This document shows positions 5,581 to 62,999 of a stretch of 64,000 nucleotides of DNA, piece by piece. This stretch comes from Chiridota heheva (lineage: Eukaryota > Echinodermata > Holothuroidea > Apodida > Chiridotidae), in the NCBI GenBank assembly GCA_020152595.1, contig JAIGNY010002305.1:1642001-1706000 (forward strand). Reading direction: 5' to 3'. The notes under the pieces are model-generated. The model saw nothing but the letters and a program-made list of their open reading frames with translations, was not told the origin of the DNA and searched no databases. Numbering within the stretch: position 1 is the stretch's first letter; each line of letters opens with the position of its first letter. Both the position numbers and the translations under genes were made by a program.

Positions 5581-8500
5581 TTCTAGTGGGTAGGGTTGAG
5601 GTGTAGATAGATGCACATTTGATTGAAATACATGTTTTGTCATCATTTGTAAGTTTTATGTCACATTGGTCCCATTATGTGGATTTCTATCATGACAATT
5701 TTATGTTGTATCCATTGCTGTCATTTGAATATATGTTAATGGTCTCTGGATGTGTAGAGGCAACCAACAATTGCTTAAAGGACTATGGACATCTAGCTGA
5801 TTTTAAATTTGTGAAAGAGCATGGAATTCTGAGTAGAATAGTTTTTAAAATTTGTAAAAAGCTTATATAGTTTTCAAGTTCTGACTAAACAAAGCTTCAT
5901 GATTTGTTGATTTATCTGGAATTTTTGATATACTTAGAGGAACACATCTCAAAATCTGTATGTAATTCTTCAAATTCTGTTCTTCAAATTCAGCTACTTG
6001 TGAATTCCAAAATGTTTTTTCTAGATACACGATGATTTGGGGTGTGACAAAGTTCCATCAAATTTTGCCTGAAGTCCAATTCAATATTTCAGACAACATT
6101 GACAGAGGAATAAAAACTAAAGGTTTGATAAAAAAGATCCTTCCCCATTGATGTCACACATTATTGTGCAATAACAGCTAAATAAAAAATGCTGTAAATT
6201 GGTCAAGTTTTAACCAATATTAAATGCAATATTTTGCTGTTTTAATGGTTTAGATTAAAGGTTCTTATTTAAATTTTTGAAAGGCCATCATTTCACAACA
6301 GCTTCAGGCCGTGGGCCAATCATGTGGCAAAACCAGCGTTAAGTGACAAACAACCCATCAAAACAGTACCTAAATACAAACAAGTTGAGAGCGTGCACAA
6401 TTAGAATGTGCGCCAGATGTCCACGGTTCTCCTATCCACCTTCCTTTGGCAAGCAGCGAACCCAATTTATAGCAGAACTAAAGATTACATTTGATTTGAT
6501 AAGTTTTAGTGAGCTGATCTGCCTACATCCCTAAAAAACAAATAAATAAAGTAGTATTTTGCGATTTTTTCCGATCTCATTTGGACTGATCTTACATGCA
6601 ATGCACTGTATTCATTGCATTATATAATAACTATTGTTCGCGGGCCAGATTTGGCCAGCGGGCTGCCTATTAAGAATCGCCGGTTTAAATCATATTTTAA
6701 ACCAATTAAGCCCATGCTGCCTCTAAATGTCCATAGTCCTTTAAACAGGATTATTAAAAATGATAAAAGTAGCAACGTACAACTTTTTGAATTTCCATGC
6801 ATCAGTAATTAAATTTGATACTTATTGGTAGAAAGGGTTTGTCATCATTGCAGCTCGCTTTCATTTCTTGTGTGCTCATTTTAAAATTCGGAATTCTTCA
6901 CAACTTTGTCATCATTACTCGAGTAATTTTATTTTAAACTGACAAATTTTAATGGGATCAATACACACCACATTTTGGTCAAATAAAGGCAATAATAAAC
7001 TTGAAAGTGCACACTTAGCAAAAGAAGAATATAATCTCCAAATTACTTTGTAATTTTTATTTTTTAAATATTTTTTACTTACAAATTTTATTGGAATCAG
7101 AATACCCGTTTTGGCCCTTCTGGTCAAATAAATGCATAGCAGAAATGTATGTGACTGGGGTTAACAAATTTGATTAAATGTTGATCATTTTAATGGCGTT
7201 GAATATTCAGGCACTAATATGTTGATTTTTAAAAGAATATTACCATGGTTTTTTGTCAAATTTTATTTGAAATAGCCTACTTCTAGAGCCAATTTCGTAC
7301 AAAAATCAGGTTGATATCATATTCCATTCAAGAGATATAGATTTTTAAAGATTTTCCAATTGCATTTTAAAGTTTTTGTACAGTATTATGAATTTGTGTT
7401 TGATGAGGTCATAGAGGCAATTCCATTGCAAATGCTTTCTTTTTTTTTTTTGATGTTAGTTGGTTGTTTCTGTATGATAAGAAACAATTTTCCAAAAGTT
7501 ATTGAAGTAGGGTATATTTGGCAATGTATATAAATACCTAACTTTCATTAATTTATTTTTCTAGCAGTTTTTACTAATAAAAAAGGTGATAGATTTTGAT
7601 AAACTACTTAAACTTTGTGGGAGAATGTGTTGCTGTGATGTCGTATTGAGCCTTTTCCTATTCGTTAATTGACATTTTTTGTGAACCTTAAAATTTGAAT
7701 ATCTCCTTGTAGGAATAACATATTAAAATGATTTTTGTACTAAATTGTTTTTAAAAATTTTATCTTATGAAAGGTTTCGAGAAAACGTGGGAATATTTCT
7801 TAACAGTACACACAAAAAGAACATAGGAATATTCCTTTAATAGGACACACGAATAAACATGGAAATATTGCTTTAACAGGACACACAAAAAAATATGGGA
7901 ATATTTCTTTAACAGGACACACAAAAAAAACATGGGAATATTCCTTTAACAGTACACCCAAAAAAACATGGGAATATTCCTTTAACAGTACACATAAAAA
8001 AACATGGGAATATTTCTTTAACAGGACACACAAAAAAACATGGGAATATTCCTAACAGTACACATAAAAAAACATGGGAATATTCCTTTAACAGTACACC
8101 CAAAAAAACATGGGAATATTGCTTTAACAGTACACATAAAAAAACATGGGAATATTTCTTTAACAGGACACACAAAAAAATATGGGAATATTCCTTTAAC
8201 AGTACACCCAAAAAAACATGGGAATATTGCTTTAACAGTACACCCAAAAAAACATGGGAATATTCCTTTAACAGGACACACGAAAAAACTGGGAATATTG
8301 CTTTAACAGTACACACGAAAAAACTGGGAATATTGCTTTAACAGTACACCCAAAAAAACATGGGAATATTCCTTTAAAGCAAATTTCATGTCCATAAACC
8401 TTTAAAGTTCTTATTAAGGGTTTGTCATCGTTGCAGCCCACTCTCATTTCTTTTGTACTCATTTAAAAAAAGCATAGCTATGTGAATAAAACACTTCTCT

Positions 8501-11500
8501 TGCAATTATCTCTACTCCTTTTAAAACAAGAGTAAGATTTTCTTTCGTTTTGTGATATTCATGTTTTCTTAGTTTTTGGTAAAAACAAAAATTCAATTTA
8601 TACCTCCGTCATGGTCTAGTGGTCATGGGCACCATAGTCGAGCGGTCATTGGCACCATGGTCTAGTGGTTATAGGCATGAGCTCGGCAAGCTAGATGTCC
8701 GGAGTTCAATCTCCGGGTGGGTCTTCATTTCAGTGCTTCACAACTGGTTTATGAAACGGCCGTGGGCATCTCTGTTGAGAAAGGGATATATGATACTCAA
8801 TCCATCTTACTGCCAATTTATTCACGATTGGTCAGAACCAAAAAGAATGAAAGAATCCATGCGTCTCATGTTACATTTAAACCTTGTTTGCTGTATAGAT
8901 ATATATGGTTCAGAATTTACTATTTAGATTGAATCGTTTAGATAAGTATGTTTATTCATTAGATAGCATGTTTATTCAGTAGACGACATGATTATTCATT
9001 AGACTTTTCATTGGTTTCCTTCATTAACAGTCATTGCAAGTGTATCCACTACCGGTAGAAAACACCGTTACCATGGTGAATCCTCCACAGCATCAAGGCT
9101 TGCATATTCAGCCACAAGTATTCAGACAAGTTAGTATCATTCCCACTCCTTCCCTTTTCTTCCACACATCTGTCTCCCTGCCCCCTCCCCACTTTCAAAG
9201 TTCCCTTCCTTTATTTGTAATATTATCTATGCATCTGAGATCATCAGAAAGTGAATTGCACAATGTTGGGGTAGCATAATGGAAAAAACTAGATCAAAAT
9301 TTTGAGGTTCTGATTTTAGGTATGTTTAATGGGACACTAGAAGTGAAGGTGCAATTTTATCAGAGACTCGTAAATATTCAGTCAAGCTTTTGTGACCCTT
9401 GTGGAAAGATTATTTATACTAAAATAGTTATCCGGGATTCAAAGACAACATTTCGTAACTTTTGGAGACAAAATTGGTCAGTGAATATTTGAAAAAATTC
9501 ATCAAAATGATGTCCTCACATATGGGTCTGGTCAATCTTTAGATGCATTCGTGATGAAGAGCCTAAAAGTCAAAGGCATAGATGGCGGGTGGAGTGGGGG
9601 TGGGGGTGGGGGTAATACCCCTACTTTTAGGTGAGTACACACAGTGAAATTTGACAAAATTCCCCTAGTTTTGTTTGTTTCTCCCCTCTCACTTTTTTGT
9701 TTTGTATGGATCTACACCAATAGTAAGGGTCTAGTTAGGGTGTAAAGATATTGTGGATCACAAAGGTACTGGGGTGCTAGATCAAAATATTTTCTGAGGT
9801 TTGGTGGCCTCACAACCATTGGATATAAAAACAAAAGGAAAAGGAATTTATTTTGTGAAAGAAAAAAAAAGAATTTACTTGAAAATTGATTAAAATGTAC
9901 TCAGAATTAAGGAAAAATAACATATTTTGAGAACAGTTTGCTTGAATTTTGAATAAAATATAATCAGAATTGTTAAGAAATTGAGGATGTGATGTCAATT
10001 TTCTACAATAGATTTTCAATGCCAGTCATTTTATGCCAATGTGAAAATTTCAAGAATTGATGTCTCTCAAAGGTAGAAGGTATCCAAAGTAGTTTGATCA
10101 GTTTGGTCGTTTTGCCCAATATCGTAAAATACACACATGTATGACTACCAAGCTAATGTTTTACTATCCTGTTTTGTTTTGCCTTTCAGAGTGCTGCTTG
10201 TCCCAATCCCCCTATGGTGGCCCACGTGGGTCATACAGCACCCTCTGCGGCCACAGCCTCCTCCCTTCAACCCCTCACCCTGTCCATGCCCGCTGGGAGC
10301 TCAACTACTCAGCAGGGATGGGCAGCAGCAGCGGCAGCTCACGCTCACAGGAGAACGGCACAGAACCAGACTGTCTTCCTGCAGGTAAGACTCCTTGATG
10401 TAACTTAGGTTTTCTTGCTGTAACTTAAGTTTTATTGCTGTTTAAAAATCCTTGAAAGTTTCTATGAGCATTTTGTCCTTTTTTGAGTCTATTTCAAGCA
10501 CCTTGAAATCCTGGAAAGTTATGGGTTATGAGTATTTTAGTTCCAGAAGTTATGGGTTATGAGTATTTTACTTCCAGAAATTATGGGTTATGAGTATTTT
10601 AGTTCCAGAAGTTATGGGTTATGAGTATTTTACTTTCAGAAGTTATGGGTTATGAGTATTTTAGTTCCAGAAGTTATAGGTTATGAGTATTTTAGTTCAA
10701 GAAGTTATTGGTTATGAGTATTTTACTTCCAGAAGTTATGGGTTATGAGTATTTTAGTTCCAGAAGTTATGGGTTATGAGTATTTTAGTTTCAGAAGTTA
10801 TGGGTTATGGGCATTTTAGTTTCAGAAGTTATGGGTTATGAGTATTTTAGTTCCAGAAGCTATGGGTTATGAGTATTTTAGTTCCAGAAGTTATGGGTTA
10901 TGAGTATTTTAGTTCCAGAAGTTATGGGTTATGAGTATTTTAGTTCCAGAAGTTTTGGGTTATGAGTATTTTAGTTCCAGAAGCTATGGGTTATGAGTAT
11001 TTTAGTTCCAGAAGTTATGGGTTATGAGTTATGAGTATTTTAGTTCCAGAAGTTATGGGTTATGAGTATTTTAGTTCCAGAAGTTTTGGGTTATGAGTAT
11101 TTTAGTTCCAGAAGCTATGGGTTATGAGTATTTTAGTTCCAAAAGTTATGGGTTATGAGTATTTTAGTTCCAGAAGCTATGGGTTATGAGTATTTTAGTT
11201 CCAACAGTTATGGGTCATGAGTATTTTAGTTCCAGAAGTTATGGGTTATGAGTATTTTAGTTCCAGAAGTTATGGGTTATGAGTATTTTAGTTCCAACAG
11301 TTATGGGTCATGAGTATTTTAGTTCCAGAAGTTATGGGTTATGAGTATTTTAGTTCCAGAAGTTATGGGTTATGAGTATTTTAGTTCCAGAAGTTATGGG
11401 TTATGAGTATTTTACTTTCAGAAGTTATGGGTTATGAGTATTTTAATTCCAGAAGCTATGGGTTATGAGTATTTTAGTTTCTAAGTTATGGATTATGAAT

Positions 11501-14500
11501 ATTTTAATTCCAGAAGTTATTTTGGGTTATGAGTATTTAAGTTCCAGAAGTTATGGGTTATGAGTATTTTAGTTCCAGAAGTTATGGGTTATGAGTATTT
11601 TACTTTCAGAAGTTATGGGTTATGAGTATTTTAGTTCCAGAAGCTATGGGTTATGAGTATTTTAGTTTCTAAGTTATGGATTATGAATATTTTAATTCCA
11701 GAAGTTATGGGTTATGAGTATTTTAGTTCCAGAAGTTATGGGTTATGAGTATTTTAGTTCCAGAAGTTATGGGTTATGAGTATTTTAGTTCCAGAAGTTA
11801 TGGGTTATGAGTATTTAAGTTCCAGAAGTTATGGGTTATGAGTATTTTAGTTGTATTTTAGTTCCAGAAGTTATGGGTTATGAGTATTTTAGTTCCAGAA
11901 GTTATAGGTTATGAGTATTTTAGTTTCAGAAGTTATGGCTTCTGAGTATTTTAGTTGCAGAAGTTATGGGTTATGAGTATTTTAGTTCCAGAAGTTATGG
12001 GTTATGAGTATTTTATGGGTTATGAGTATTTTAGTTCAGAAGTTATGGGTTAGTTATGGGTTATGAGAATTTTATTTTTTCCAGAAGTTATGGCTTAAGT
12101 ATTTTATGGGTTTTGAGTATTTTAGTTCCAGAAGTATTTTTATGGGTTTTGAGTATATTAGTTCCATGGGTTAAGTATTTTATGGGTTATGAGTATTTTA
12201 GTTCCAGAAGTTATGGGTTATGAGTATTTTAGTTCCAGAAGTTATGGGTTTGTATTTTAGTTAGTTATGGGTTTTAGTTAGTTCCAGAAGTTAAGTATTT
12301 TATGGGTTATGAGTATTTTAGTTTCAGAAGTGATCTGTTATGAGTATTTTAGTTGCAGAAGTTATAGGTTATGAGTATTTTAGCTCCAGAAGTTATGGGT
12401 TTTGAGTATAAAAAATGGCAAAAACAAAACTATAATTAAAGATTTCTGAAATTTCTTTTCTGAGAACTGACATTAATCAATTAATTTCTTTAAAGCAAAA
12501 ATGTTCAATGTTTTGACCATTACGCTTTACCATAAAAATCATCTGTTTGGCAAGCCCATTCATTGCAGTTATAGTATAGGCAATAGAATGCAACAACATT
12601 CGTGTTATACTCAATTGATTGCTTTTGATATGTTTGCACACAATCACTTTTATTTCCATTCCAGAGTGGTCCTGTGCATTCTTGGACAACAGCTGGCGGA
12701 CAAGTATTATTGACGCCATGGCAACAGGGGGCAGTATCACACCAGCCTGTCATTCCAGAAACACAACCTCTCTCAGACACATGGAGGTAAGGCATGAGGA
12801 AAACATGAATGTTTTGTAGGAAACATGAGTTTTTGCAGTAAATATGATTGGTTTGCAGTAAACATGAAGTTTTTGCAGTAAACTTGATTGGTATGTGGGA
12901 AACATGAATGTTTTGCAATAAACATGATTTTTTTTGTGGTAAAAATAATTGGTTTACAATAAACATGATTGGTTTACAGTAAAGATGGATCTTTTTCCAG
13001 TACACTTTTTTTGGGGCAGTAAACATGGAAGTTTGTTGCACTAGACTTGATATATTTGCACTGCACATACTTTTACCAAGAACCTGATTTTTGCGGTAAA
13101 CATGAATGTCTTGCAGTAAACATGAATGTCTTGCAGTAAACATGAATGTCTTGCAGTAAACATGAATGTCTTGCAGTAAACATGAATGTCTTGTAAAATG
13201 AATGTCTTGCAGTAAACATGAATGTCTTGCAGTAAACATGAATGTCTTGCAGTAAACATGAATGTCTTGCAGTAAACATGAATGTCTTGCAGTAAACATG
13301 AATGTCTTGCAGTAAACATGAATGTCTTGCAGTAAACATGAATGTCTTGCAGTAAACATGAATGTCTTGCAGTAAACATGAATGTCTTGCAGTAAACATG
13401 AACATTGACATCAGTAGACATTAACATTGATGCGGTAAACTGCACTGTTTCTGCAGGACAAGAAATTTCTTTGCAGAGAACTTGAATGTTCTTGCAGGAC
13501 ATAAATACTTTTACAAAGAACATTATTTTTTGCAGTAAAGATGAACGTTATACAGTACTTTATGCACATTTTTGCAGTAAACATTTGTTGCAGTGTACAT
13601 GAATATTTTTACAGAGAACATTATTTTTTTTGTAGTAAAATGAACATTATAAAGTACATATGCACATTTTTGCAGTAAACATTTGTTGCAGTAAACATGA
13701 ATATTTTTACAGAGAACATTTTTTTCTTTCTCAGATATCCTCTGGTCAGATTTTACTGCCCCTCCTGAAAGACTTACAATAGTCATTTAAATAAATCATT
13801 GTTTTATAAAGAAAATTCTTAATGTCACCCTGTAATACATCACAGTACATGGGGAGGCAGGTAGCTCAGTCGGCTGACATGCTGGAGGTCCCAGATTCCA
13901 GTCCAACAGCGATTTAACCAGCGATTTGTCCACATATGCAGAACGATAAACACTGACATTATGCACAGAGGTTTGTCTTCTGCATTACACCTCCCTCACC
14001 TGACTTTTGTGAAAAGGTTCTCGGAGGGGACGTAAAGCCGTCGGTCCTGATGGTAGGAGATTCACCCCCTGCCTGGTTCTCTGAACATTCCTTGAAAAGA
14101 GCAGGGCGTTAACCCGGTGTTCATCCACTTTCCATCCTGGCAAATTCATCGTGTACACACTAAAAACAAGTCATTGTGACTTACGTGTGCTTTCCCTGGC
14201 ATGAGCCTAAAAGTGTAAACTAATACATCACAAAATTTGCATAAAGATTTGCATATCGATGCCCGAGAATTTAAAACACAGTAAAGTGGTTAATTTTTAA
14301 CCGATGTGATGAATATCTATCGTGGTTTTTATTAGGTTTTATTTAAGTGTTGTCTCAACATTTTCACATATCTTCAAAATGAATCTTTTCTTTATTTTAC
14401 ATTCACCACACTAGACGGCAGTTTGTGTCTGCGGCCCCGATGTCGTGGCGGACAGCAGACGATTCAGGTTTCATTACAGCCGAGCCCAGTCCCGCTGTTT

Positions 14501-17500
14501 TTCACATGGACGTAGGGGAGGGGACATTTCTTGATCACACAATTGAGGTGAGTTATTTCTATTACAGAGGATTTTTTTTGGATAAAACGGTGAAGAAAAG
14601 AAAAAAATATGTTGATATCTTATTCCGTAAAATTGTAGAATTGTCTGATGTTATACAGGTGATAGCAAGCAGTTTTGCTGTTATGATTAACATGTTGTTA
14701 TGATTAACATGTTGTTATGATTAACATGTTGTTATGATTAACATGTTGTTCATTGTCATGGTATGCTTGATTCAAATTAGATGATGATAGTACTCTGATT
14801 AAAGGAATATTCCCGTGAATTTTTGTGTGCAATTTTGTGATACAGGTCCTCTGAAGGAACAAATTGGTGAACAATAAAACCATATTGATATTTTATTTCC
14901 GTAAAAATCAGATAATTGTCCAGTATTTTACTGCTGATATCAAGTAGTTCTGTAGTTACGATGAAAGGGGCAGTAGACAAAAATGTAAGGGTGCAATTTT
15001 CCAGCGACTCCCAAATATTCTGCCAAGCTTTTTGACCCTCGTGTAGATCTGCAAAACTTCCCAAACTCAAATATTTATATGAAGTAGTTATTTGAGATTC
15101 ATAAACTGTAACTTTTTTGGTTCCAATGCGATAGCGTCAGGAACTTCTGTGGTCATGATGGCGTGTATGTATGTGTATGTATGTATGTATGTTTGTGACT
15201 GCAAGCTCGTAAACGTGATATCTCTAGAATGATACACTAGATTTATATCATATTTGGTACACATGTAGCCCATGGTCCGTAGATGTGCCCTATAGTTTTT
15301 GCTGCTGATGTCATGCATATTAATGAGTAGGCGGGGCTTATTGTAAAAATCATGAAATGTTCATATTTTACCAACTGCATGTCTGTTTTGTTTCATATTT
15401 GGTATAATTATGATGTTAGCTGGTGTGTACATGTTCATGATGTTAAAATATTGAATTTTATTAATATGTGCAGTGGGCGGGGCCTAATATGATTTTGCTA
15501 CATATGAGCTTGTAAACACGGTATCTCATGAGGGGTAAACTGGATTCATGTAATATGTGGTACACAGATAGCTCATGGTCCATAGATGTGCACTATTGTT
15601 TTTGATAGTGATGTCATGTATATTAATGAGTAGGCGTGGCTTGATGTAGTCTTCAGATATTAATATTTTAACAACCGCATGTATGTTTTCTTTCATATTT
15701 GGTATAATTATGATGTTAGCTGGTGTGTACATGTTCATGATGTAAAGACATTGACTTTTATGAATATGCATAGTGGGCGGGGCTTAACATGATTTTGTAA
15801 GCAAAAAGCTGGTAGACACGATATCTCAAAAACATTAAACTGGATTCATGTTATGTGTGGTACACAGATAGCTCATGATCTGCAGATGTGCCCTAATGTT
15901 TTTGATGGTGATATCATGCATATTAATAAGTGGGCAGGGCCTAAAGGGAAAATTTTGAAAAAGTGATAAATGAGCAACTGTCTGTCTGTTTTGTTCATAT
16001 TGGGCATGATAATTTTGTATGCTTGTGTTATCAACATTTGTCATTAATATGCATGGTGGGCGTGGCTTAGTTTGAAATTGTTAAATGATGTAAACACCAT
16101 ACTGTATCTCATGAACTATATATCAGACTTATGCTGTGCATAAATGAGGTACACAGATGGGTCATGGTCTGTACATGTTCTAATGTTGTGGTATTAATGT
16201 CGTGAATATTAATGAGTAGGCGGGGCTTACTGAAAAATTCTTAAAATAGGCTAAATGAGCAACCGTTTTTGTATCATACTTGCTATGATAATGCTGTTAA
16301 TTATTGTGCAAATAAATGTTATCAACAATTTTATTGATCTACATGGTGGGTGTGGCTTACAGTATGAATAAATATCATGGAACAATTATTTCTGCATGAT
16401 ATGCAATGACATGACAGTTAATACATATTTTGCAAACCAATCAGCTTACGGAAAAAAGAAGAAGAAAAAAAGCATAGGAACCACAAAACCGTTTGGTTCT
16501 GGTTATCACTTTAGAAGGCAAAAACAGGTTAATCAACATTTGAAAAAATTACCAAATAGATTAATGGGTTTTATAGTTCACCTATAAGACACTGCTTAAT
16601 GTCATGAATATTGTTTGTTCAATGCAAAGATTTCAGACGCTGTTGATATTTATGTTTATATCTTATTCCATAAAGTTGTAAAATTATTATTATTATACCG
16701 AATATCATAGTGCTCTAATTCATGAAGAAAAAAAAAACATGCTCATAAGCACTGTACATGAAATATAATATGAATTAATATAATTAGAAATTATAGTCCA
16801 TATGCTAACTTAAATAGATGTGTTTTTGATAAGGATTCAAAAAGTGTTGAAATCTGAAGAGTCTCGGACATCACTTGGAAGGTTGTTCCAGAGTGCTGAT
16901 GTTATTGTTCTAAAAGATTTGTCACCATGACTGACAGTTTTTGTGCGTGGTACCACGAGACTTGAAGTTCTACATGACCTGAGTGCACGTGCTGGAGTAT
17001 ACAGTTTAAACATATTTGTCATATAACAAGGTGATAAGCCACATAGTGCCCGGAAAGTGTGTACGATGACCTTGTGCTTAATAGGGTTACCCACTGGAAG
17101 CCAGTGGAGCTCCTTCAGCACAAGCGTAATGTGTAGAATTGCCTTTTATAATTGGTGATAGCAAGTATTGCACTTAAGATTAATACGCTGTTCTGATATT
17201 GTTTGTTCCATTCAGAGATCTCAGTTTGGCTCAGGGAGCCATAGGACGCCTGTAATACCACAGCATGCACTGCAGGCTCACACGTGGAGTACCAACAGCA
17301 GCCTGCATGGTAGGGGTGGGTCACAAAACAGACGGGTCAGAAAACAAGGTGCTCAAAGGTAAGCTGGTGTGGTAGTCTTCAGGATTTTGAAGTGATAAGC
17401 AATATAAGCCTTTTCCTGGATTGTTTTTGTGTGTAGACATCTTATATCATGTAATAATGATTTTAAAGGAATATTCCCATGTTTTTTAAGGAATATTCCC

Positions 17501-20500
17501 ATGTTTTTTTCAAGGAAATATTCAAATGTTTTTAAAGAATATTCTCATGTTTTAAAAGAAATATTTTCATGCTTTTAAAGGAATATTCACATGTTTTTAA
17601 AGGAATATTCACATGTTTTTAAAGGAATATTCACATGTTTTTAAAGGAATATTCACATGTTTTTAAAGGAATATTCACATGTTTTTAAAGGAATATTCAC
17701 ATGTTTTTAAAGGAATATTCACATGTTTTTAAAGGAATATTTACATGTTTTTTTTCATAAGAAAAATATTAGGAACAATTTAGTACAAAAATCATGTTGA
17801 TATGTTATTCCTACGAGTAGATATTCAAATTTTAAGGTTTACAAAAAATGCCAATAAACGAATAGGAAAAGGTTAAGTACGACATCACAGCAATACATTC
17901 TCCCACAAAATTGATGTATTTTGTCAAAATCTATCATCCTTATTTTTATTAGTAAAATCTGATGAAAGATAAGTTGATAAAAGTTAGGTATTTATATACA
18001 TTGCCAAATATACCCTACTTCAATAACTTTTGGAAAATTGTTTCTAATCATACAGAAACAACCAATCAACGTTCAAAGAAATACATAATTATTTGCAATG
18101 GAATTGCCTCTATGACATCTTCCAACACAAATTCATCATACTGTACAAAAACTTTAAAATGCAATTGGAAAATCTTTGAAAATTTATATCTCCTGAACTG
18201 AATATGATATCAACCTGATTTTTGTACCAAATTGGCTCTAAAAGTATGCTCTTTCAAATAGAATTTGACAAAAACCATGGGAATATTCCTTTAGAAATCC
18301 ATATCTTTTGAACTTAATATGATATCAACCTGATTTTTGTACCAAATTGGCTCTAAAAGTATGCTCTTTCAAATAGAATTTGACAAAAACCATGGGAATA
18401 TTCCTTTAGAAATCCATATCTTTTGAACTTAATATGATATCAACCTGATTTTTGTACCAAATTGGCCCTAAAAAGTATACTCTTTCAAATAAAATATTTA
18501 AAAAACCATTGGAATATTACAAAAAACCATGGGAATATTACAAAAAACCATGGGAATATTACAAAAAACAATGGGAATATTACAAAAACCCATGGGAATA
18601 TTACAAAAAAAACAATGGGAATATTACAAAAAACAATAGGAATATTACACAAAACGATAGAAATATTACAAAAAACAATAGGAATATTGCAAAAAACAAT
18701 GGGAATATTACAAAAACCCATGGGAATATTACAAAAACCCATGGGAATATTACAAAAAAACCATGGGAATATTTCTTTAAGGAAGCGTGGTAGCTCGGTG
18801 CTGGATTGTCAGACTCTCACTTCAACTCTAAGTAGCATGTTGTGTCTTTGACACTTCATTTCCTATAGCTCCGGTTGACTCGGGTGTGAAATAAAAGTAC
18901 CAGCTTGTCGGAGACTTAGTCTATGATGGACTGGTGTCCCATCCAGGAAGGTCAAGTACTCTTATCTACTTGCACCAAGAAAAAATAGGAATAAGCACCT
19001 GCTTATGTTAGCTTTCATTGTCTGGGGAGGATTTAACTAATGATAAAAGTAAAATGTTGTTTTAGTTGTTATTTACTTCAAGTTCAGCTGTTGGCAGCTC
19101 CATAACATCTTCCCGTTCCAAAATTTCAGATGCGATCAAATTTGAGGAAATACTTAGCCAAGTATTACTTCGCTCCTTCAAAATATTGTGGCAAATAAAT
19201 TCAAGCCTCTTGGGTGCACTATGTTTGACTTCTCCAACCTCTTTCCACCTCTAACATAATCTAATTTCTCAGGCACAATTGACCATCGCTCTTATGGTGC
19301 CGTTTAAAATAAACAAACAAATCGATCCTTTTTATGTCTGAATTCCAGGTCAAACGTCGCTTTCAGCAGCAGCTTATCACCCCAAAAGAGCAAGCGTGTC
19401 CGAGGCAGCTCCCCGTCCTCCAGCAACGCCGTTGAAAGCACACCACAGCCCAACAGGGTGTCCCACTCCTTGAAGAAAGAAATAGAGGAGACGGGTGAAC
19501 CATCGGGAGCATCCAAAGCAGCTTACTCATACAAGAGAGAGCCCATCATCATATCAGACACCCCCAGCCCCGTGCCGAGTGTCATAACCATCAGTGATGA
19601 TAGTGATGATGAGGGTGTCGATACCAGTACAAAAAGGTTTGTAACCAATTTTGCTGTTATTTTAGTGACTGGGTTAGTTCAGTGGTCGACACAAGTTCAT
19701 TGTATATGAAGGAGGAATGAAAGAGGAAGAAAATGGTGAAGAATTTACTTCAGTCTTGTACTCCTTTTAGTAAATATTTAAGTTTAAAACTTCTGCCTTA
19801 TTTGTGTAGTGATGCCTGTGGTGGAAATTAAAAGAAAAAAGTTCTCCTTTTTGTAGTATTTCAACAAACTAACAAAAAAGTAACATTAAAACAAGATCAT
19901 CATCAATGTTATAAAATCTAATACACACAAATCCCGTTCTAACAGAAGGTCCGGCTGGTCCTTTGATGTCAGCTCCTCACTTTCTTCTACTGTTATATAT
20001 TGTTTGGGTGCAGTATTGATAATTATATCTGTGCGTTAACACAATTGATTGTCTTGGTTATTCCGGTATTTATCCAAATTTCTTTCAAATAACAACACTG
20101 TTTACAGTCCACCACTTTTTTAGGTAGCTTATTCCAAATGTCAACAATCTGATATTTGAATGAGTTCTGTCTAATGTGAGTTCTGTCTAATCTGCAGTCT
20201 AATCTTTTCTTGTATATCTTTTTGTTGTGCCCTGGTGTTATACCAATAAAATCTATAAAATAAAACGTATCACATATCTCCGGGGTCATATTTATGTGTT
20301 ATAATCTTGTAGGCCTCTATGAGATCTCCTCGATGCCTCCTGTAGGTGAGTGATGGTGGATTTGGCAAGCCTTTCAGCATAATTCAGCTTGTCCATTCCT
20401 GGTAATAAGCGTTTGGCTCCTCTCTGGAGATTCTCTTTCATATTAATATGTTTGATCTTCTATGGACTCCAAAATGGATTACAATATTCAAGCAATGGCC

Positions 20501-23243
20501 TATCCGTACTTTTATACAATAATATAAATGTCTGGTTTTTAAGGCACTGAAAGGTTCTTTGATGGCTTCAAGTACTTTATTTGCCTTATTAAAGGATTAG
20601 TTCAGTGGTGAAGCGTGTCCATCTTATATGAAAGAGGACTTTAAAAGAAACAAAGTAGTGAAGAAAGCGTTCAAAAATCTTATTCCGTTAAGGAGATATT
20701 AAAGGATTAGTTCAGCAGTGAAGCGTGTCCATCTTATATGGAAGAGGACTTCAAAAGAAACAAAATAGTGAAGAAAGCATTCAAAAATCGTATTCCATTA
20801 AGAAGATATTTAAGTGTAAAGTTTGGTATCATTTCTGTAGAAACGACTGAAATCAGACTAGTTGTGATGTCATAACCTTAGATTCCTCAGTCTTAATGTA
20901 TTTTATAGAAAGTTTTTTTTTTTTTTTTGTATTATTTAAATTAGTTTCCCTCAAACTTTCTTCAAATGGTATATTATAAATACCCTTCCTAGATTCAGTT
21001 TTACTACTTTTTTGACATATCCTATGGTCACAAAATTGCAGGAAGAAAAAATATGATAGAATACATCAAGACTTTCAGGAATCTGAGGCTGACATCACAA
21101 CTAGTCTGAGTTCAGTCGTTTCTACTACACAAATGATACCAAACTTTAAGCTTAAATATCTCCTCAACGGACTAAGAATTTTGAATCCTCTTTCATATAA
21201 GGTAAACATGCTTGACCACTGAACTAATCCTTTAATCTTTTCAATCATGACTTTCAAAGGTAAGATTTCCATCAACAATTACACCAATGTCTTTCTCTTC
21301 AGATGATTTTTCTATGGGTTTCAAATTTTGCTTCAGTCTATATTCGACTTTAGGGACACACGAATTTGTAATTTTCATTCTTTTACATTTATCAGGATGG
21401 AATCTTAGCATCCAAGTATCCGCCCACTTTTGTATTTGTTTAATGTCTTCCTGTAATTTCTTACAGTCATTTTCAGTTTTGTCATATTGGAACACCTTAT
21501 TGTCATTCTCATATAAATAAACTTCACCGAACGCGACGCGGTGAGCGATTTTTTAGATAATCATACAGGAAACAAATATAAGATGCTTTGACTTTTTTCT
21601 TACACACGATGAAGTTTACATTAAAGTTTTTCTAATGAAACTGGAAAATTTGTTAAAAATGTGTTTTTGTTTAAATTGTGGAGAAAATCGCTTCAGTGGG
21701 GCGCGATTTTCTGTCGCGGCACAAATTTTGCTTTAATGTGCGTAGAAAGGCCCTTTCAATAATTTTTCAGTCATCTGAATAGCCATGCAATGACGATGCT
21801 AATCTGAAAACGAGGTCAAAATGTGTTTTTTCCCTTTGTTTTATTCATTTTTGTATAAACAATCGCTCACCGCGTCACATTCGGTGTGTAACGGGCTTTA
21901 AGTGACATCACTGTGAGTAAAAGCTTTGATTTTGAATTTGAATCATCTGTTATATTTAGAAGTTGTTATGTTTTTTCTTCTGCAGATGTGAGGCCTCATG
22001 TACTGCATGTAATGATAATAGTCTAACGCACTCGTGTTCCCTGAGTAGCTCAAACAGTATACTCAGCGCAAGCCCACCCCCAAGACACAACGACCGGTCT
22101 GTGCCATCATCACATTCCAGTCTTGGCATCTCGCCTTTGGAGGATGTTGGGAAGTCACCAAGGCACAATGTCATAAGTTGTGTCACCATCGCGGATAGTC
22201 CCGATGATGAGAGAGGTGATACCGCCCAGAGGGTTGCCGCCAAGTCTAAGATGGGTACTGAACAGAAAGCACAGAGGGAACAATCAAGCCGCGGAGAAGA
22301 GAGAGATAGGGTCAGATTTCAGTCAGTGTGTGAAGAGATTCAAACAGAGAGAGACAGCGAGGGACACATGGTGGTGGAGCCATTGGCGTTAAAGGTGGAA
22401 CCAGATTTGCAAGGTCAGTGCCAGAAGGAGGACAGGAAACCGTTGGCGAAAGTCGGAAAAGCATTAACGTTGACGGATTATGAATTGTCAAGAATGGGAC
22501 TGAAGAAGGAAAAGCCGCTTCACCATCGATCAGATTCAGCTATAGCTTTCATCAATATGCCGCCCTTGCAGGGGGAAGCTGAGGTGGGTACAAGTTCACA
22601 GGGTACAATGACCCAACAGGGAACTGGGGAGACGATCTTGCCATCATTGCCTGCCAGTGCACGGTCATCTTTGCTGCTGCAAACAGTAGCTCAAAGCAAT
22701 GGCGTAGATGCCAACGTCAGGAGAATCAGTCGGGTAGGCGAGGGTAACAACTCCCATATCAACCAAGTTCAGTCACAGAATCGAAAAATAGTGTATGCAT
22801 CTACGGGGGGTCAGGTTTATATCACGCCGGCCGCCCATACCGCGCAAACCATTTCTTTACTTGCTAGCCCCACCCAGAACCCCCACCCCGCACATCACAT
22901 GGTACCTAGTGCAGGAGCACAATACATAAATTACAGGTACGGGGGTACTCCCGGTTTAGCTTCCCCAGCGGGTGCCACAATACACACAATACCCACACAA
23001 CCACATATCCATTATCGCACAAACCTCGCTGCACACGCCCATGGGGCAGTCCTGCAGACCCCCTCCATGGTGCCACATGGTTACCCTACGTCATCTAGCC
23101 TCTTCACTACTCACCCGTTGTCACATTCACATTGTGGTCGACCTGTGTACGTACGCTCACCCTCTGGGAATATTTACAGCACATACCCTTTAAGTCCCAC
23201 CCGTAATCGAGCGCATGTCTTTTATCCAACTGGTGGAGAGTGA
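404..23243 (+). CDS. HIPK: Homeodomain-interacting protein kinase (HIPK), 3' part of gene, nine exons
   Basis: Nine exons (404-578, 3600-3788, 9031-9129, 10190-10384, 12665-12786, 14415-14547, 17216-17358, 19349-19636, 21986-23243) join in one frame to give 866 aa and a TGA stop; every join keeps phase and every intron starts GT and ends AG. The start codon and kinase domain lie left of the window. The order of motifs follows vertebrate HIPK2 after its kinase domain: MEVCKR, NLNISFNNQL, RQDPFQQ, ENTV/LHIQPQ, LLTPWQQ with VIPET, SPQKSKRV, IIISDTPSPVPSVITIS followed by an acidic stretch (the SUMO-interaction motif), HNVISCVTIADSP, and a C-terminal YPLSP. HIPKs are nuclear dual-specificity-type kinases that phosphorylate transcription factors and co-repressors. 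This is inference from family homology. Invertebrates usually carry one HIPK, so I do not assign a vertebrate paralogue number. Confidence 0.95.
768..1176 (-). mobile_element. Decayed LINE reverse-transcriptase tail
   Basis: Minus-strand translation gives FHWLPV, then ITFKLMLFVNKSLN, CVPTYVNHLL and PTR, the conserved post-catalytic tail of L2/CR1/Jockey-type LINE ORF2 (typically LHWLPV, FKILLLTYKAL, APxYL). A later frame has IFGINYLMNSNLPQ, like the WN-LP motif. Frames shift, and the MLFV-KSLN segment is duplicated in tandem (plus strand about 965-1070). Non-functional, 5'-truncated, inside a HIPK intron. Confidence 0.72.
1886..2880. repeat. Minisatellite with higher-order structure, AAATTATGACAGGTT core
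   Basis: About 20 copies of a unit built on TTTAAATTATGACAGGTT, of two main lengths: a short form with GACCACCTACC and a longer one with TTTTCTTTTCAACCACGTA. A block with a doubled ATTATGACAAATTATGACAGG recurs near 2240, 2560 and 2765, so groups of units have been copied together. It lies in a HIPK intron. Confidence 0.93.
3005..3065. repeat. TTGA-rich simple repeat
   Basis: Imperfect ATTGATTGATTGAT runs around a TATTTATTGATTGATTGATAATC core. A similar block occurs at 3480-3545. Confidence 0.8.
3600..3788 (+). CDS. HIPK: HIPK exon ending in the DPFQQ motif
   Basis: The exon has 189 nt, 63 codons, phase 0 on both sides, with acceptor CATTTCATTAG and donor CAG|GTAAGC. The product is rich in Pro, Gln and Tyr, begins APSQALTSS (compare APSSTSA in HIPK2) and ends RQDPFQQ (compare RPDPFQQ). 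The match at both ends supports the splice sites. Confidence 0.93.
3789..5548. other. HIPK intron, no recognised gene
   Basis: No exon-like sequence. A 20-bp TAAGCATGCTAG-type duplication sits just after the donor (3789-3850). The ORFs at 3890-4268 lack splice support and family similarity. There are fragments of dispersed repeats but no complete element that I could define. Confidence 0.6.
5549..5578. repeat. (TG)n microsatellite
   Basis: About 15 uninterrupted TG dinucleotides. Confidence 0.97.
5579..7230. other. HIPK intron, no recognised gene
   Basis: AT-rich sequence. Short ORFs (5619-5870, 6343-6534, 6615-6812) have no recognisable domain or splice context. Nothing supported. Confidence 0.6.
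7231..7800 (-). mobile_element. MITE copy A (about 530 bp, AATATTCCCATGG termini)
   Basis: Begins AAAAGAATATTACCATGG and ends GTGGGAATATTTC, an inverted terminal repeat. The whole body is the reverse complement of 17745-18290, about 85% alike by eye over some 500 bp, with landmarks GGGTATATTTGGCAATGTAT and GAATAGGAAAAGG in both. No coding capacity. Its right terminus runs straight into the tandem array at 7790-8390. Confidence 0.85.
7790..8393. repeat. Minisatellite of 33-36 bp derived from MITE terminus
   Basis: About 17 units made of CATGGGAATATTCCTTTAAC, then AGTACACATAAAAAAA or AGGACACACAAAAAAA. The CATGGGAATATTCCTTTAA part equals the end of MITE copy A. Open frames on the minus strand (up to 135 aa, FPCFFVCPVKEI-type) and plus strand are periodic artefacts. 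Confidence 0.93.
8611..8740 (+). mobile_element. tRNA-derived SINE or tRNA fossil with triplicated A box
   Basis: ATGGTCTAGTGG-type A box occurs three times with a 23-bp period (8611, 8634, 8657), followed by a B-box-like GGAGTTCAATCTCC at 8701-8714 and then GGGTGGGTC. The head resembles tRNA-Glu/Asp A-box sequence (TGGTCTAGTGGTTA). No acceptor-stem pairing was found, so it is not called as a tRNA gene. Confidence 0.65.
9031..9129 (+). CDS. HIPK: HIPK exon, 33 residues, ENTV...LHIQPQ
   Basis: The exon has 99 nt in phase 0 between TTCATTAACAG and CAA|GTTAGT. It encodes SLQVYPLPVENTVTMV and GLHIQPQVFRQ, which align with the MENAVPIV and LQIQPGLLAQ segments of HIPK2. The donor is weaker than its neighbours (no G before GT), but the frame continues perfectly into the next exon. 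Confidence 0.9.
9130..10189. other. HIPK intron with dispersed-repeat fragment
   Basis: The stretch 9322-9510 (GGGACACTAGAAGTGAAGG, then TGCAATTTTATCAGAGACTC, then AGTCAAGCTTTTGTGACCC) is a diverged copy of 14955-15115 in the same orientation. The repeat type is unknown. There is a G-rich run at 9590-9615. No exon. Confidence 0.6.
10190..10384 (+). CDS. HIPK: HIPK exon, Ala/Ser/Thr-rich linker
   Basis: The exon has 195 nt, 65 codons, phase 0, flanked by TGCCTTTCAG and CAG|GTAAGA. It encodes a low-complexity Ala/Ser/Thr/Pro stretch with a six-Ala run, ending NQTVFLQ. It is much more GC-rich than the introns on either side. All three frames are open across it, but only this frame joins its neighbours. 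Confidence 0.87.
10519..12410. repeat. 31-bp minisatellite, about 60 copies
   Basis: The unit is GTTATGGGTTATGAGTATTT, then TAGTTCCAGAA (31 bp). Copies are very uniform in the middle and broken up by small deletions after about 11990. It fills most of the intron between the exons at 10190-10384 and 12665-12786. Confidence 0.97.
12665..12786 (+). CDS. HIPK: HIPK exon with LLTPWQQ and VIPET motifs
   Basis: The exon has 122 nt, entered in phase 0 and left in phase 2. It lies between TTCCATTCCAG and GGAG|GTAAGG. It encodes QVLLTPWQQGAVSHQPVIPET, which matches the QILLPPAWQQLTG and ATVIPET segments of HIPK2, and ends LSDTW plus two bases of an Arg codon (compare LADWR). Confidence 0.92.
12795..13735. 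repeat. 20-bp minisatellite with degenerate flanks
   Basis: A core of near-identical AGTAAACATGAATGTCTTGC units runs from 13092 to 13405; more diverged related units extend on both sides. The 20-bp period keeps all three minus-strand frames open and gives the same peptide (HVYCKTFMFTARHSCLLQDI) cyclically, so the 279-, 160- and 112-aa ORFs here are not evidence of a gene. The array starts right after the donor at 12786. Confidence 0.95.
13848..14215 (+). mobile_element. tRNA-derived SINE
   Basis: TAGCTCAGTCGG at 13862-13873 matches the pol III A-box consensus exactly, and GATTCCAGTCC at 13894-13904 resembles the B box; the distance is about 12 bp shorter than in a tRNA. The body contains GGACGTAAAGCCGTCGGTCC and CCATCCTGGCAAATTCATCG, a long conserved-core style typical of invertebrate SINEs. 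Full length is likely, in a HIPK intron. Confidence 0.75.
14415..14547 (+). CDS. HIPK: HIPK exon, divergent linker
   Basis: The exon has 133 nt. Its first base completes an Arg codon (phase 2 to 0), between CACCACACTAG and GAG|GTGAGT. It encodes RQFVSAAPMSWRTADDSG and a short acidic end. Sequence similarity to vertebrate HIPK is weak here. The evidence is frame continuity on both sides, good splice sites, and base composition above that of the intron. Confidence 0.78.
14683..14750. repeat. 17-bp tandem repeat, four copies
   Basis: TTATGATTAACATGTTG repeated four times. It lies between two similar segments (14555-14680 and 14860-14960) that both contain a TTGATAT, TTATTCCGTAAAA-like stretch, so the region is a local duplication. 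Confidence 0.9.
14798..15115. mobile_element. Fragment of a dispersed MITE-like repeat
   Basis: Begins TTAAAGGAATATTCCCGTG, the same kind of terminus as the MITE at 7231/17760, and includes the segment shared with 9322-9510. No coding capacity. Boundaries are approximate. Confidence 0.5.
15120..16360. repeat. About 300-bp tandem repeat, four diverged copies, with GGGCGGGGC boxes
   Basis: Each copy carries GTACACAGATAGCTCATGGT-like sequence, then a CATATTAATGAGTAGGC, GGGGCTTA block, then CTGTTTTGTTTCATATTTGG-like sequence and GTGGGCGGGGC. The ATTAATGAGTAGGC block recurs near 15320, 15625, 15920 and 16205. Minus-strand ORFs of similar sequence (AHL, MSYLCTT) are products of the repeat. Confidence 0.85.
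16780..17160 (-). mobile_element. LINE reverse-transcriptase tail (L2/CR1-like)
   Basis: Minus-strand translation gives LVLKELHWLPVGN, then FRALCGLSPCYMTNMF, YTPARALRSC, VVPRTKTVSHGDKSFR and LWNNLPSDVR, the standard tail of L2/CR1-type ORF2. After a frameshift comes SLSKTHLFKLAYGL and the end. 5'-truncated, broken, and lying just upstream of a HIPK exon in the opposite orientation. Confidence 0.88.
17216..17358 (+). CDS. HIPK: HIPK exon, basic Ser/Gln/Arg linker
   Basis: The exon has 143 nt, phase 0 to phase 2, between TTGTTCCATTCAG and CAAAG|GTAAGC. It encodes RSQFGSGSHRTPVIPQHALQ followed by a basic stretch ending RRVRKQGAQR. A LINE tail ends less than 100 bp upstream in the opposite orientation, and the minisatellite-flanked MITE starts about 100 bp downstream. 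Confidence 0.86.
17463..17757. repeat. 22-bp minisatellite, left end of MITE copy B
   Basis: About 13 units of AAAGGAATATTCACATGTTTTT. The unit equals the MITE terminus AAAGGAATATTCCCATG plus a few bases. It joins directly to the MITE body at about 17757. Confidence 0.94.
17757..18290 (+). mobile_element. MITE copy B body
   Basis: Reverse-complement partner of 7231-7800. Landmarks are CAATTTAGTACAAAAATCATG, GAATAGGAAAAGG, GACATCACAGCAA, TTGCCAAATATACCCTACTT and CAACCTGATTTTTGTACC, ending CCATGGGAATATTCCTTTAG. No coding capacity. Confidence 0.87.
18190..18781. repeat. Right-end expansion of MITE copy B: 113-bp triplication and 21-bp array
   Basis: The last roughly 113 bp of the MITE (ATATCTTTTGAACTTAATAT to GGGAATATTCCTTTAGAAATC) occurs almost three times (18190-18480). 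It is followed by about 13 units of a 21-bp repeat, AATATTACAAAAAACCATGGG, to 18771. Plus-strand (YYKKPWE) and minus-strand (VFCNIP) ORFs are periodic artefacts. Confidence 0.93.
18782..18990 (+). mobile_element. tRNA-derived SINE, short form
   Basis: GTGGTAGCTCGGTGCTGG resembles an A box. The 3' part, GATGGACTGGTGTCCCATCC, is the tail shared with the minus-strand SINEs at 54931-55183 and 57060-57280. It follows directly after the minisatellite at 18771. Confidence 0.6.
19349..19636 (+). CDS. HIPK: HIPK exon with nuclear-localization-like segment and SUMO-interaction motif
   Basis: The exon has 288 nt, phase 2 on both sides, between TGAATTCCAG and AAAAAG|GTTTGT. It encodes SLSPQKSKRVRGSSPSSS (the SPQRSKRVKE basic segment of HIPK2, a likely nuclear-localization signal). 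It then encodes IIISDTPSPVPSVITIS followed by DDSDDE. In vertebrate HIPK2 the corresponding hydrophobic core plus acidic tail is the SUMO-interaction motif that directs it to nuclear bodies. Conservation of VITIS plus acid is visible directly; function is inferred. Confidence 0.95.
19660..19725 (+). mobile_element. Fragment of the AGGATTAGTTCAGTGG MITE family
   Basis: Contains GGGTTAGTTCAGTGGTCGAC then TATATGAAGGAGGA, the left end of the family that is intact at 20593-21231. It lies just after the HIPK donor at 19636. Confidence 0.55.
19990..21524 (-). mobile_element. Decayed CR1-like LINE, split by a MITE
   Basis: Minus-strand translation in order: LYENDNKVF (catalytic YADD region, mutated), LQEDIKQIQKWADTWMLRF then PDKCK, KDIGVIVDGNLTFESH, [MITE 20593-21231], NKANKVLEAI, LEYCNPFWSP, RGAKRLLPGMDKLNYAERL, RRHRGDLIEAYKI, and VDIWNKLPKKVV. 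These are the finger-to-tail blocks of CR1-type ORF2. Frameshifts and stops show it is dead; it is 5'-truncated next to the element at 21525. It lies antisense in the last HIPK intron. Confidence 0.9.
20593..21231. mobile_element. Foldback MITE, family AGGATTAGTTCAGTGG, with TTAA duplication
   Basis: Starts AGGATTAGTTCAGTGG and ends CCACTGAACTAATCCT, with inverted arms of roughly 190 bp. TTAA flanks both ends (20589-20592, 21232-21235). The first 107 bp or so are duplicated in tandem (20593, 20701). Removing the element with one TTAA restores the LINE reading through KINKAN. Non-coding. A TTAA duplication is typical of piggyBac-like elements; TA would also fit, so the superfamily is inference. 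Confidence 0.88.
21525..21890. mobile_element. CpG-rich TIR element (MITE)
   Basis: CACCGAACGCGACGCGGTG with AGCGATT at the left end pairs with AATCGCTCACCGCGTCACAT, TCGGTG at the right end: a 26-bp TIR with few mismatches. An inner palindrome AAAATCGC...GCGATTTT lies near 21680-21710. Its CpG content stands out in AT-rich surroundings. It ends about 100 bp upstream of the last HIPK exon. Confidence 0.78.
21986..23243 (+). CDS. HIPK: HIPK terminal coding exon
   Basis: The exon has 1258 nt, with acceptor TTTTTTCTTCTGCAG; its first base completes an Arg codon and it ends in TGA. It opens with a short Cys-containing piece (CEASCTAC), then HNVISCVTIADSPDDE, which matches the NVISCVTVHDSP block of HIPK2. 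A charged Lys/Glu-rich middle follows, then a Tyr/His/Pro/Thr-rich tail containing VYITPAAHTAQTISLL (compare AYITPTMAQAPYSF) and the near-terminal YPLSP. It is by far the longest exon here and clearly GC-richer than its surroundings. Confidence 0.96.
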
Positions 23244-28070: not shown

Positions 28071-28074
28071 GGAT

Positions 28075-36215: not shown

Positions 36216-36454
36216 AGCAGCTTCTATTTTCAAAATGGATTTCTATTGTCAGAATGGACTGGAGTAAAACCTTCACATTACCAATATACTCCTTTTTTGG
36301 TACTTAATCAACTCTGTACCAGAACAGCAAACAAAGATTTTGCTAGCTATTCTGGTACAGAGTTTGTTAAGCACCAAAAAAAGGGTATTATGGTAATGTG
36401 AAGGCTTAAGTCCAATCCATTTTGACAATAGAAATCCATTTTGAAAATAGAAGC
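36216..36454. mobile_element. Palindromic foldback MITE with 8-bp target duplication
   Basis: The two halves are nearly perfect reverse complements. The left arm has CTTCTATTTTCAAAATGGAT, CCTTCACATTACCA and CTCTGTACCAGAA; the right arm has the same in inverted order, ending ATCCATTTTGAAAATAGAAG. The loop is only a few dozen bases. TGTTAGGA flanks both sides (36208-36215 and 36455-36462). An 8-bp duplication suggests a hAT-like mobiliser; no transposase is present. RNA across it would form a hairpin of over 100 bp. Confidence 0.9.
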
Positions 36455-43100: not shown

Positions 43101-43695
43101 TGGAGGATGCATCAATGTCACATTCAGGGGAGGGGCTGTAGGGGATTACATGAAGAATGTCTTTGAAGGTATGTCCTATATCAAAAGAAATATCTCTAAG
43201 AGGGCTGAGGATATGTATTCCTGTTAGATACCCCTGCCAATGGGGGAATAAATATCACATACAGCTCACCCATCTATAAAGGAAGTAGAAGGATGTTCAG
43301 AATGGGTGTCACTGTAGAGGGGTGATGATACGTCCTTGATATATAATCTAATGGGTTGAATGCATAGATATCGCATACAGGGTATGGGTTGTAACTCGCG
43401 TATCTAAAAGGGGGTAAAGAATGTGATCAAAAGAGGGTAATTGGTTAATATGATTGCAAATGGATAATTTTTCGGTATTCAGATCAGCAAAGTTATGACA
43501 GAATATTACTGAAGGCCTTATACTTTTCAGACCTTCATGAGGCAAAAAATTAATTTGTGAGATGAGCATATTCTTTCTTACTACAACTAGTGGAGAATCA
43601 TGTCTCCTGCATATGGAATAGGGGGGGAGGGGGCAACGTTACCCTTTCCAAATCATGGATACCATTGAATCCTAAAAAGATAAGATGCATGTTCT
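43101..43695. other. Intergenic, degenerate edge of the minisatellite
   Basis: Faint unit remnants (CTTGATATATAATCTAATGG near 43335) continue to about 43400. Otherwise nothing recognised; G run at 43620-43632. Confidence 0.5.
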
Positions 43696-43699
43696 ATTC

Positions 43700-44215
43700 A
43701 AGGATTAGTTCAGTGGTCAAGCGCAAGTCTATCCATGGAGCTTACAGGATTAGTTCAGTGGTCAAGCATAAGTTTATCCATGAAGCTTTTAGAATTAGTT
43801 CAGTGGTTAAGCACGAGTTTATCCATGGAGCTTACAGGATTAGTTCAGTGGTCAAGCGCGAGTTTATCCATGGAGCGTACAGGATTAGTTCAATGGTCAA
43901 GCACGAGTTTATTCATGGAGCTTACAGGATTAGTTCAGTGGTCAAGCGCGAGTTTACCCATGGAGCCTACAGTGTTAGTTTAGTGGTCAAGCGCGAGTTT
44001 ATCCATGGAGCGTACAGGATTAGTTCAGTGGTCAAGCGTGAGTTTATCCATGGAGCTTAAAGGATTAGTTTAGGGGTCAAGCGAGAGTTTATCCATGGAA
44101 CGTACAGGACTAGTTCAGTGGTCAAGCGCCAGTTTATTTATGGAGCGTACAGGATTAGTTCAGTGGTCAAGTGCGAATTTATCCATGGAGCTTAAAGAAT
44201 TAGGGGTCAAGCAAG
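43700..44215. repeat. 45-bp array built from MITE terminus
   Basis: Eleven units, each beginning AGGATTAGTTCAGTGGTCAA then GCGCGAGTTTATCCATGGAG. AGGATTAGTTCAGTGG is the terminus of the MITE at 20593-21231. The array replaces the left end of the MITE copy that continues to 44720. Confidence 0.95.
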
Positions 44216-44720
44216 TCCATCCTATATGAAAGATTTTAAAAGAAACAAAATAATGAAGAAAGCATTCAAAAATCTTATTCCGTTAAGAAGATATTCTAGT
44301 TAAAAGTTTTGAGCAGTACAGGAGATTCCTGTCTTCACAAGAAAAATTATTTTCCCCCAAAAAAGGGGAAAACCTATGTAAATTCCAAATTTCCATTTAC
44401 AAGTGCTTTGACCTACGGTTTCTAATTAGCATATATTAAAAGAAATATCATGATAAAACTGCAAATGTGCAGGAGGATGCTTACTTCCAGAGGTTTTCTT
44501 CCTAACACAGGGATGGACAATTTAGTACATAAAGACTTTGAGGAATCTGAGGCTATGACAACAACTAGTCTGATTTCAGTCATTTCTACACAAATGACAC
44601 CAAACTTGAATATCTCCTTCACTGGATAAGATTTTTAAATGCTTTCTTCACCATTTTGTTTCTTTTCAGGTCTTCCTTCACATGAGATGGACTTGCTTTA
44701 CCCCTGAACTAATCCTTTAA
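44216..44720. mobile_element. AGGATTAGTTCAGTGG-family MITE body and right end
   Basis: Contains AAGTCCATCCTATATGAAAG, AAAATCTTATTCCGTTAAGA and, inverted, TCCTTCACTGGATAAG, then ends CCCCTGAACTAATCCTTTAA. Same order as 20593-21231. Confidence 0.82.
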
Positions 44721-62908: not shown

Positions 62909-62999
62909 CTGCTGAGCAAAACAAAGGACAACAGAGACAATGTAACTTGCTGGTAAGAAAACATTTCAACTCAATTTCACTTTAATTAATTGTAAGGGC

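Follow-up and report, generated by a model that had tools for sequence, protein, structure and literature searches.

The window analysed here is a stretch of 64,000 nucleotides of contig JAIGNY010002305.1 of Chiridota heheva, and all within-window counts refer to it. It holds several short transposable elements, among them two miniature inverted-repeat transposable elements (MITEs) in opposite orientation, E1 and E2, at whose ends the terminal sequence has been turned into tandem arrays. Related elements, E3 and E4, carry a duplication or an array at one end. The founding of tandem repeats by transposon ends is a known route; here several stages of it are visible, in two families that are related to each other.

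Elements at the locus

The elements were sought by a de novo scan for inverted 14-mers bounded by TTAA, no more than 3 kb apart and with at most two mismatches. The scan returned 24 pairs, 14 within E1 and E2 and 10 elsewhere. The perfect pairs among these ten are E6 and E3. Two pairs with one mismatch end at 44720 (E4) and 46069 (E5), and the partner in both is an array unit at 44057. Six pairs remain, two of which re-use ends of E6 or E3; four candidate pairs with two mismatches lie at 20810-21155, 27618-28977, 36304-36370 and 49123-49364. With control 4-mers in place of TTAA, the same scan found 4 pairs for AATT (all within E1 and E2), 1 for TATA, 0 for TGCA, 1 for CATG and 29 for ATAT. Twelve of the ATAT pairs among the matches listed fall in E1 and E2, where ATAT is part of AATATT.

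Table 1. Elements, end arrays and solo ends in the window.
Feature	Position	Strand	Description
E1 (copy A), MITE	7229..8377	.	TTAA-AAGAATATTACC ... GGAATATTCCT-TTAA; from the de novo scan for TTAA and inverted ends and from body alignment
E1 right-end array	7782..8377	-	unit 34-37 bp, about TTAAAGGAATATTCCCATGTTTTTTTGTGTGTACTG; TRF period 36, 16.6 copies; 16 seams
E2 (copy B), inverted relative to E1	17463..18780	.	ends TTAA-AGGAATATTCCC and, on the other strand, TTAA-AGAAATATTCCC
E2 left-end array	17457..17752	+	22-bp unit TTAAAGGAATATTCACATGTTT; TRF 13.4 copies
E2 right-end segment of about 115 bp, three times (body copy and two more)	18186..18518	-	TRF period 115, 2.9 copies
E2 right subterminal array	18493..18773	-	21-bp unit AATATTCCCATGGTTTTTTGT; 13 units; TRF 13.3 copies
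E3, related element	20589..21235	.	TTAA-AGGATTAGTTCAGT at both ends; perfect 14-bp inverted ends
E3 left-end duplication	20587..20814	+	110 bp x 2, 101/110 identical; seam GATATTAAAGG; TTAA at 1/1 seam
E4, family of E3	about 43693..44720	.	right end intact TTAAAGG; left outer terminus TTCAAGG
E4 left-end array	43701..44203	+	45 bp x 11; TTAA at 2/11 seams, mostly TTAC or GTAC
E5, second copy of right half of E4 with flank	45782..46115	.	90.3% over 340 columns
E6	5775..6744	.	TTAA-AGGACTATGGACAT at both ends
Solo end	14799..14830	+	TTAAAGGAATATTCCCGTGAATTTTTGTGTGC; 28/32 positions match E1 unit
Solo end	52186..52204	-	TTAACGGAATATTCTCATG; without array

The initial annotation described the bodies of E1 and E2 (7231-7790 and 17757-18290) as reverse complements of each other. 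This is borne out by a BLASTN search of 7231-7790 against the window, which matches 18292-17753 on the opposite strand at 88.6% across 545 columns. A global alignment gives 500 matches in 575 columns, 21 of them gap columns, so that the identity of the two bodies by these methods is 87-89%. The coordinates first proposed for the elements were close, but the limits from TTAA to TTAA are those of Table 1. The terminal sequence is TTAA-AGGAATATTCC at the right end of E1 and the left end of E2, TTAA-AAGAATATT at the left end of E1 and TTAA-AGAAATATT at the right end of E2. All 20 copies in the window of AATATTCCCATG, the terminal sequence within the units, lie inside 7200-8400 or 17440-18800.

A direct repeat of 54 bp (87%) flanks E1 at 6833-6886 and 8416-8469, its left copy directly to the right of E6. 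E1 may thus lie between parts of an older duplication.

The ends of E1, E2, E3 and E4 align, and at about 105-125 bp inside the terminus they have an inner block in common, near GAGATATTnAAnnTTAAAGnTTT. A BLASTN search with the E1 body hits this block in E3, E4 and E5, and once more at 5384-5447, outside any recognised element. The TTAAAG part of the block is altered to TTTTAAGG in the right end of E1 and the left end of E2, and is lost in the right end of E4. The array units of E3 and E4 are made of sequence of the second family. The right half of E4 with its flank (44435-44765) recurs 1.3 kb downstream at 90% identity; this second copy, E5, was left out of counts of independent elements. A partner for the solo end at 14799 was sought up to 17400 and none was found. 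About 50 bp from this solo end, at 14679-14750, a perfect 17-bp unit, TGTTATGATTAACATGT, is present in 4.2 copies; this array is probably very young.

Class of the elements

Judged by their sequence, E1 to E4 are probably non-autonomous MITEs of the Kolobok/T2 kind, with a TTAA target and AGG-type ends. TTAA is found at both ends of E1, E2, E3 and E6; E4 has it at the right end only, with TTCA at the left. In the extracts of PMC6004289, a TTAA target together with terminal AGGRR marks the T2-MITEs of Xenopus, which are presumed to belong to the Kolobok superfamily, and some XKol ends start with AGGAC (Table 5 of that paper). AGGAA follows TTAA at the right end of E1 and the left end of E2, in agreement with AGGRR, and the other ends are one base off: AAGAA (E1 left), AGAAA (E2 right), AGGAT (E3 and E4) and AGGAC (E6).

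A TTAA MITE of the piggyBac type was rejected: none of these ends has the CC(C/T)T terminus given for that type in extracts of PMC2872659, since they begin with AGG or a one-base variant of it. Arrays on both ends, as in foldback elements, are present in E2 only. The ends have TTAA and not the longer target duplication of the foldback type (8-10 bp in Tetris); longer flank duplications had no separate search. When the inner 200 bp of one end was aligned with that of the other, the value lay above every one of 200 shuffles in E2 (0.58 against a maximum of 0.57), E3 (0.62 against 0.56) and E4 (0.64 against 0.55), and below the shuffle maximum in E1 (0.55 against 0.57) and E6 (0.53 against 0.56).

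Arrays at the element ends

Tandem Repeats Finder (TRF) recovers all four arrays that had been reported at the termini of E1 and E2. Seams between units were called by cutting at the AG of the terminus, a phase that the unit listing presupposes. TTAA stands at 15 of the 16 seams in the right-end array of E1, and at 11 of 12 in the left-end array of E2.

The right end of E2 is more complex. The 113-bp triplication originally described there does have three copies, but its period in TRF is 115 and the terminal stretch of the body itself counts as its first copy. The first and second copies agree at 109 of 115 positions; between the second and third, 77 of the first 100 positions agree when no gaps are allowed. 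Both seams read CTAAAGG (CTAA 2/2, TTAA 0/2). The 21-bp array claimed for the same terminus is also real, but its unit begins 3 bp inward of the AGG-type terminus and has no TTAA, and TTAA is found at 0 of the 12 seams. The unit contains CATGGTTTTTTGT, a sequence from the element end on which it lies (compare the left end of E1). The two end arrays of E2 are inverted to each other.

The family-2 terminus AGGATTAGTTCAGTGGTCAAGC, at 43701-44203 and 20589-20615, resembles the 5' part of a tRNA gene (A box), as judged against the A-box consensus. Neither ARAGORN nor Rfam finds a tRNA at this terminus.

Arrays were counted throughout the window from TRF, with rows merged manually and a length of at least 150 bp. 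The 26 arrays that result have units of 19-300 bp and occupy 28.8% of the bases; 12 of them are without a BLASTN relative elsewhere in the window (E 1e-3). Since 20 of the 26 lie away from recognised element ends, the region might simply form minisatellites everywhere, some of which fall on element ends by coincidence. In a placement test, one unit per array was positioned at random, with uniform probability, in 20,000 placements. The right end of E1, the left end of E2, the 115-bp segment of E2, the left end of E3 and the left end of E4 were counted as terminus-covering, and the 21-bp array, because of its start 3 bp inside, was excluded. Five of the 26 arrays thus cover a terminus against 0.33 expected for ten ends (two each for E1, E2, E3, E4 and E6, with solo ends kept separate), and five were reached in none of the 20,000 placements. 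For twelve ends, 0.40 arrays are expected and P(>=5) is 5e-5. If the arrays at E1 right and E2 left are taken as one ancestral duplication, four are left, and P is 0.00025 to 0.0004. These P values are optimistic, because the test is exploratory, the region was chosen for its arrays and some elements were found through them.

The position of the units within the arrays points the same way. Every unit of the six end arrays begins at a terminus or within 3 bp of one, and exact TTAAAGG is found in four arrays out of 26, each of them at one of these termini. Chance overlap is therefore disfavoured by the placement test, and coincidence is a very improbable explanation. The suggestion that the transposon end is a recurrent seed of tandem repeats gains from the duplications of E3 and E4 and from this excess, as far as the present window goes. 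No array of the E1/E2 unit without the MITE, named earlier as evidence against such a role, was seen in the window. A duplication or array is present at five of the ten ends of paired elements, namely those just listed as terminus-covering; the other five ends, and both solo ends, are array-free.

Other features of the window

Exons at 291-23240 (+) resemble the C-terminal region of a HIPK-type kinase, and exons at 47576-62965 (-) resemble an SR-rich splicing factor that has a CCHC knuckle; both likenesses were judged by eye. Pfam matches zf-CCHC in 62618-62965, and a reverse transcriptase fragment lies at 60070-60588. At 8610-8677 a 23-bp unit, CATGGTCTAGTGGTCATAGGCAC, is repeated three times and, judged by eye, resembles the head of a tRNA-derived short interspersed nuclear element in triplicate. 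This is perhaps a further tandem element end, outside the MITEs. Rfam (gathering threshold) and tRNA scans across the window gave no match, and an exact scan of viral contigs for TTAAAGGAATATTCCCATG gave 0 matches.

How many founding events

It had been argued from the differing unit lengths that the expansions were independent. For the 36-bp array of E1 and the 22-bp array of E2 the argument is weak, because both are on the homologous element end and have a core of about 22 bp in common. Different lengths are therefore no proof of separate births. The extra part of the E1 unit resembles the solo end at 14799 (28/32 over the whole 32-mer), and may come from an old terminus rather than from the flank. 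Separate events would number at least E2 right, E3 left and E4 left, together with one event of the right type. This reading is based on the 21-, 115-, 110- and 45-bp units, each of which contains sequence that belongs to its own end or family.

Models for the origin of the arrays

One model holds that ends are prone to duplication through microhomology and that the product then grows as an ordinary minisatellite does. The E3 seam, GAGATATTAAAGG, consists of interior sequence GAGATATT and of flank and terminus TATTAAAGG, with the overlap TATT. Joining the interior GAAGATATTTAAG to the outer flank and terminus CTTATTAAAGG gives the seam GGAGATATTAAAGG, so that a join at this 4-bp microhomology reproduces what is found exactly. 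In the duplication of about 115 bp in E2, TAAAG is common to the seam GATATGGATTTCTAAAGGAATATT and to the interior as it stands in E1 GATATAGATTTTTAAAGATT; E2's own interior now reads GATATAAATTTTCAAAGATT. The inner breakpoints of this duplication and of the 110-bp one in E3 lie, by eye, about 7 bp apart in the same inner block, and this block resembles the terminus. Microhomology joining explains the pattern, and so could a transposase that used the inner TTAAAG as a target or mistook it for an end.

The second model places the birth of the arrays with the transposase. An end would be cut at TTAA, or would insert into the inner TTAA of a sister copy, and collapse or repair would leave a terminus head to tail, with TTAA at the seam. 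Abortive cut and repair at the terminal inverted repeat (TIR) was the initial annotation's proposal. The presence of TTAA immediately before the terminus at nearly all seams of E1 right and E2 left, and at the single seam of E3, fits such a process, and the junctions of P-element tandems have the size of the target-site duplication, according to the review PMC9659126. However, TTAA is absent from the seams of the 21-bp and 115-bp repeats of E2 and rare in those of E4. Seams inside one array also copy each other, so that the counts are not independent. Insertion into the inner GATATTTAAG of E3 predicts GATATTTAAAGG, and the actual seam is one T shorter, as the microhomology join has it. Cut and repair by a transposase is thus second in likelihood, unproven and on the whole unlikely.

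In a third model the arrays have a function. The copies of the terminus would be extra binding sites for a transposase with a THAP domain, would be selected for transposition and would be carried between sites. The analogy is with Galileo, whose TIR tandem repeats hold THAP-domain sites (PMC3688188, in extract); the THAP domain is usual in Kolobok transposases in extracts of PMC6004289, and the inverted end arrays of E2 have foldback anatomy. Against this, unit length and side vary among copies, the left end of E1, the right ends of E3 and E4 and both ends of E6 are array-free, and Pfam recognised no transposase family among the 14 open reading frames of the window that were scanned. This model is improbable.

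Secondary structure was also considered as a common driver and rejected. Six stretches were folded as DNA, and four did no better than shuffles (z-scores: E2 left 22-bp, -2.9; 21-bp, -1.7, which is weak; E1, -0.6; E4, 1.0; E3, -0.5; E2 115 bp, -0.6).

Duplication by microhomology followed by ordinary growth is the explanation favoured overall, and it is somewhat probable. A short tandem duplication would first form at the end, where A/T-rich, TTAAAG-like sequence from deeper inside the element is joined to the outer TTAAAGG boundary. The most likely route is template switching primed by microhomology, or end joining, while the element end is replicated or repaired. From two copies on, slippage and unequal exchange, active region-wide, would lengthen and homogenise the array. 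Growth is probably by ordinary slippage, because 20 arrays lie off element ends and seven inner units in the left-end array of E2 are identical, and because the region is so rich in minisatellites.

Several observations weigh against this account. The E3 seam is the only one clean enough to be read base by base, and an interior donor site for the arrays of E1 right and E2 left was not seen. The recurrent TTAA at the seams of these two arrays is also expected of a transposase-linked process. TRF finds no array inside E6, and neither of the two solo ends has one. The placement test presumes uniform placement, and E1, E2 and E4 were noticed partly through their own arrays.

Relation to known systems

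TIRs and long terminal repeats are prevalent sources of satellites in extracts of PMC9659126, a table of which lists the TIR of the Xmix MITE as source of the Xstir satellite, and the TIR of Tetris as source of satellite arrays. Xmix/Xstir, a T2-MITE of Xenopus, is like the present elements in its TTAA, its AGGRR ends and its MITE-borne tandem-repeat family (PMC6004289, PMC12628747). Xstir is unlike them in that an internal segment was amplified, according to extracts of the same two papers, though the table in PMC9659126 gives the TIR as the source. In the present elements the repeated unit is the terminus itself, TTAA stands at most seams of two arrays, and the unit differs by end.

Foldback elements, among which are the TU elements of sea urchin, offer a second comparison. 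Tetris, a foldback of Drosophila, has inverted ends with tandem repeats, which are proposed to have arisen when part of the outer TIR was duplicated, but its target duplications are 8-10 bp long and its 220-bp repeats lie inside the outer flanking domain (PMC4079207, in extract). The present elements have TTAA, and their repeats are at the extreme end. Galileo, with a THAP transposase and extra transposase sites in the tandem repeats of its long TIRs, would be a functional parallel (PMC3688188, in extract), but it belongs to the P superfamily, which differs from that of the present elements.

Two other MITEs come close in part. The CMITEs of coral are TTAA MITEs with a common inner sequence and with tandem arrays ascribed to replication slippage, but their ends start with CC(C/T)T, as is typical of piggyBac, and what stands in tandem is the whole element and not its terminus (extracts of PMC2872659). 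In miDNA4 of Xenopus tropicalis, a MITE with tandem repeats for which microhomology is proposed in array change, the satellite is internal and the element is of the Tc1/mariner type (extracts of PMC12628747). Literature that combines MITE, TTAAAGG and tandem repeat was searched for and none was found. Kolobok-type copies with a different terminal unit at each end were not met in the literature searched, which excluded the original Xstir papers and most subscription papers, and no claim of priority is made.

Significance

Known cases are usually seen late, when the array is already long and the first join has been erased. In this window neighbouring related elements show the stages side by side: E6 is without an array, E3 has a single duplication, one end of E2 holds three copies, and arrays of 11 to 17 units are found in E4, E1 and E2.

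A further and speculative idea, which we consider doubtful, is that Kolobok-type ends are nurseries of minisatellites, with a conserved TTAAAG-like sequence about 110 bp inside each end as a decoy terminus. If this were true, breaks or stalled replication would restart at the decoy and lay termini head to tail, and the array and the number of transposase sites would be set copy by copy.

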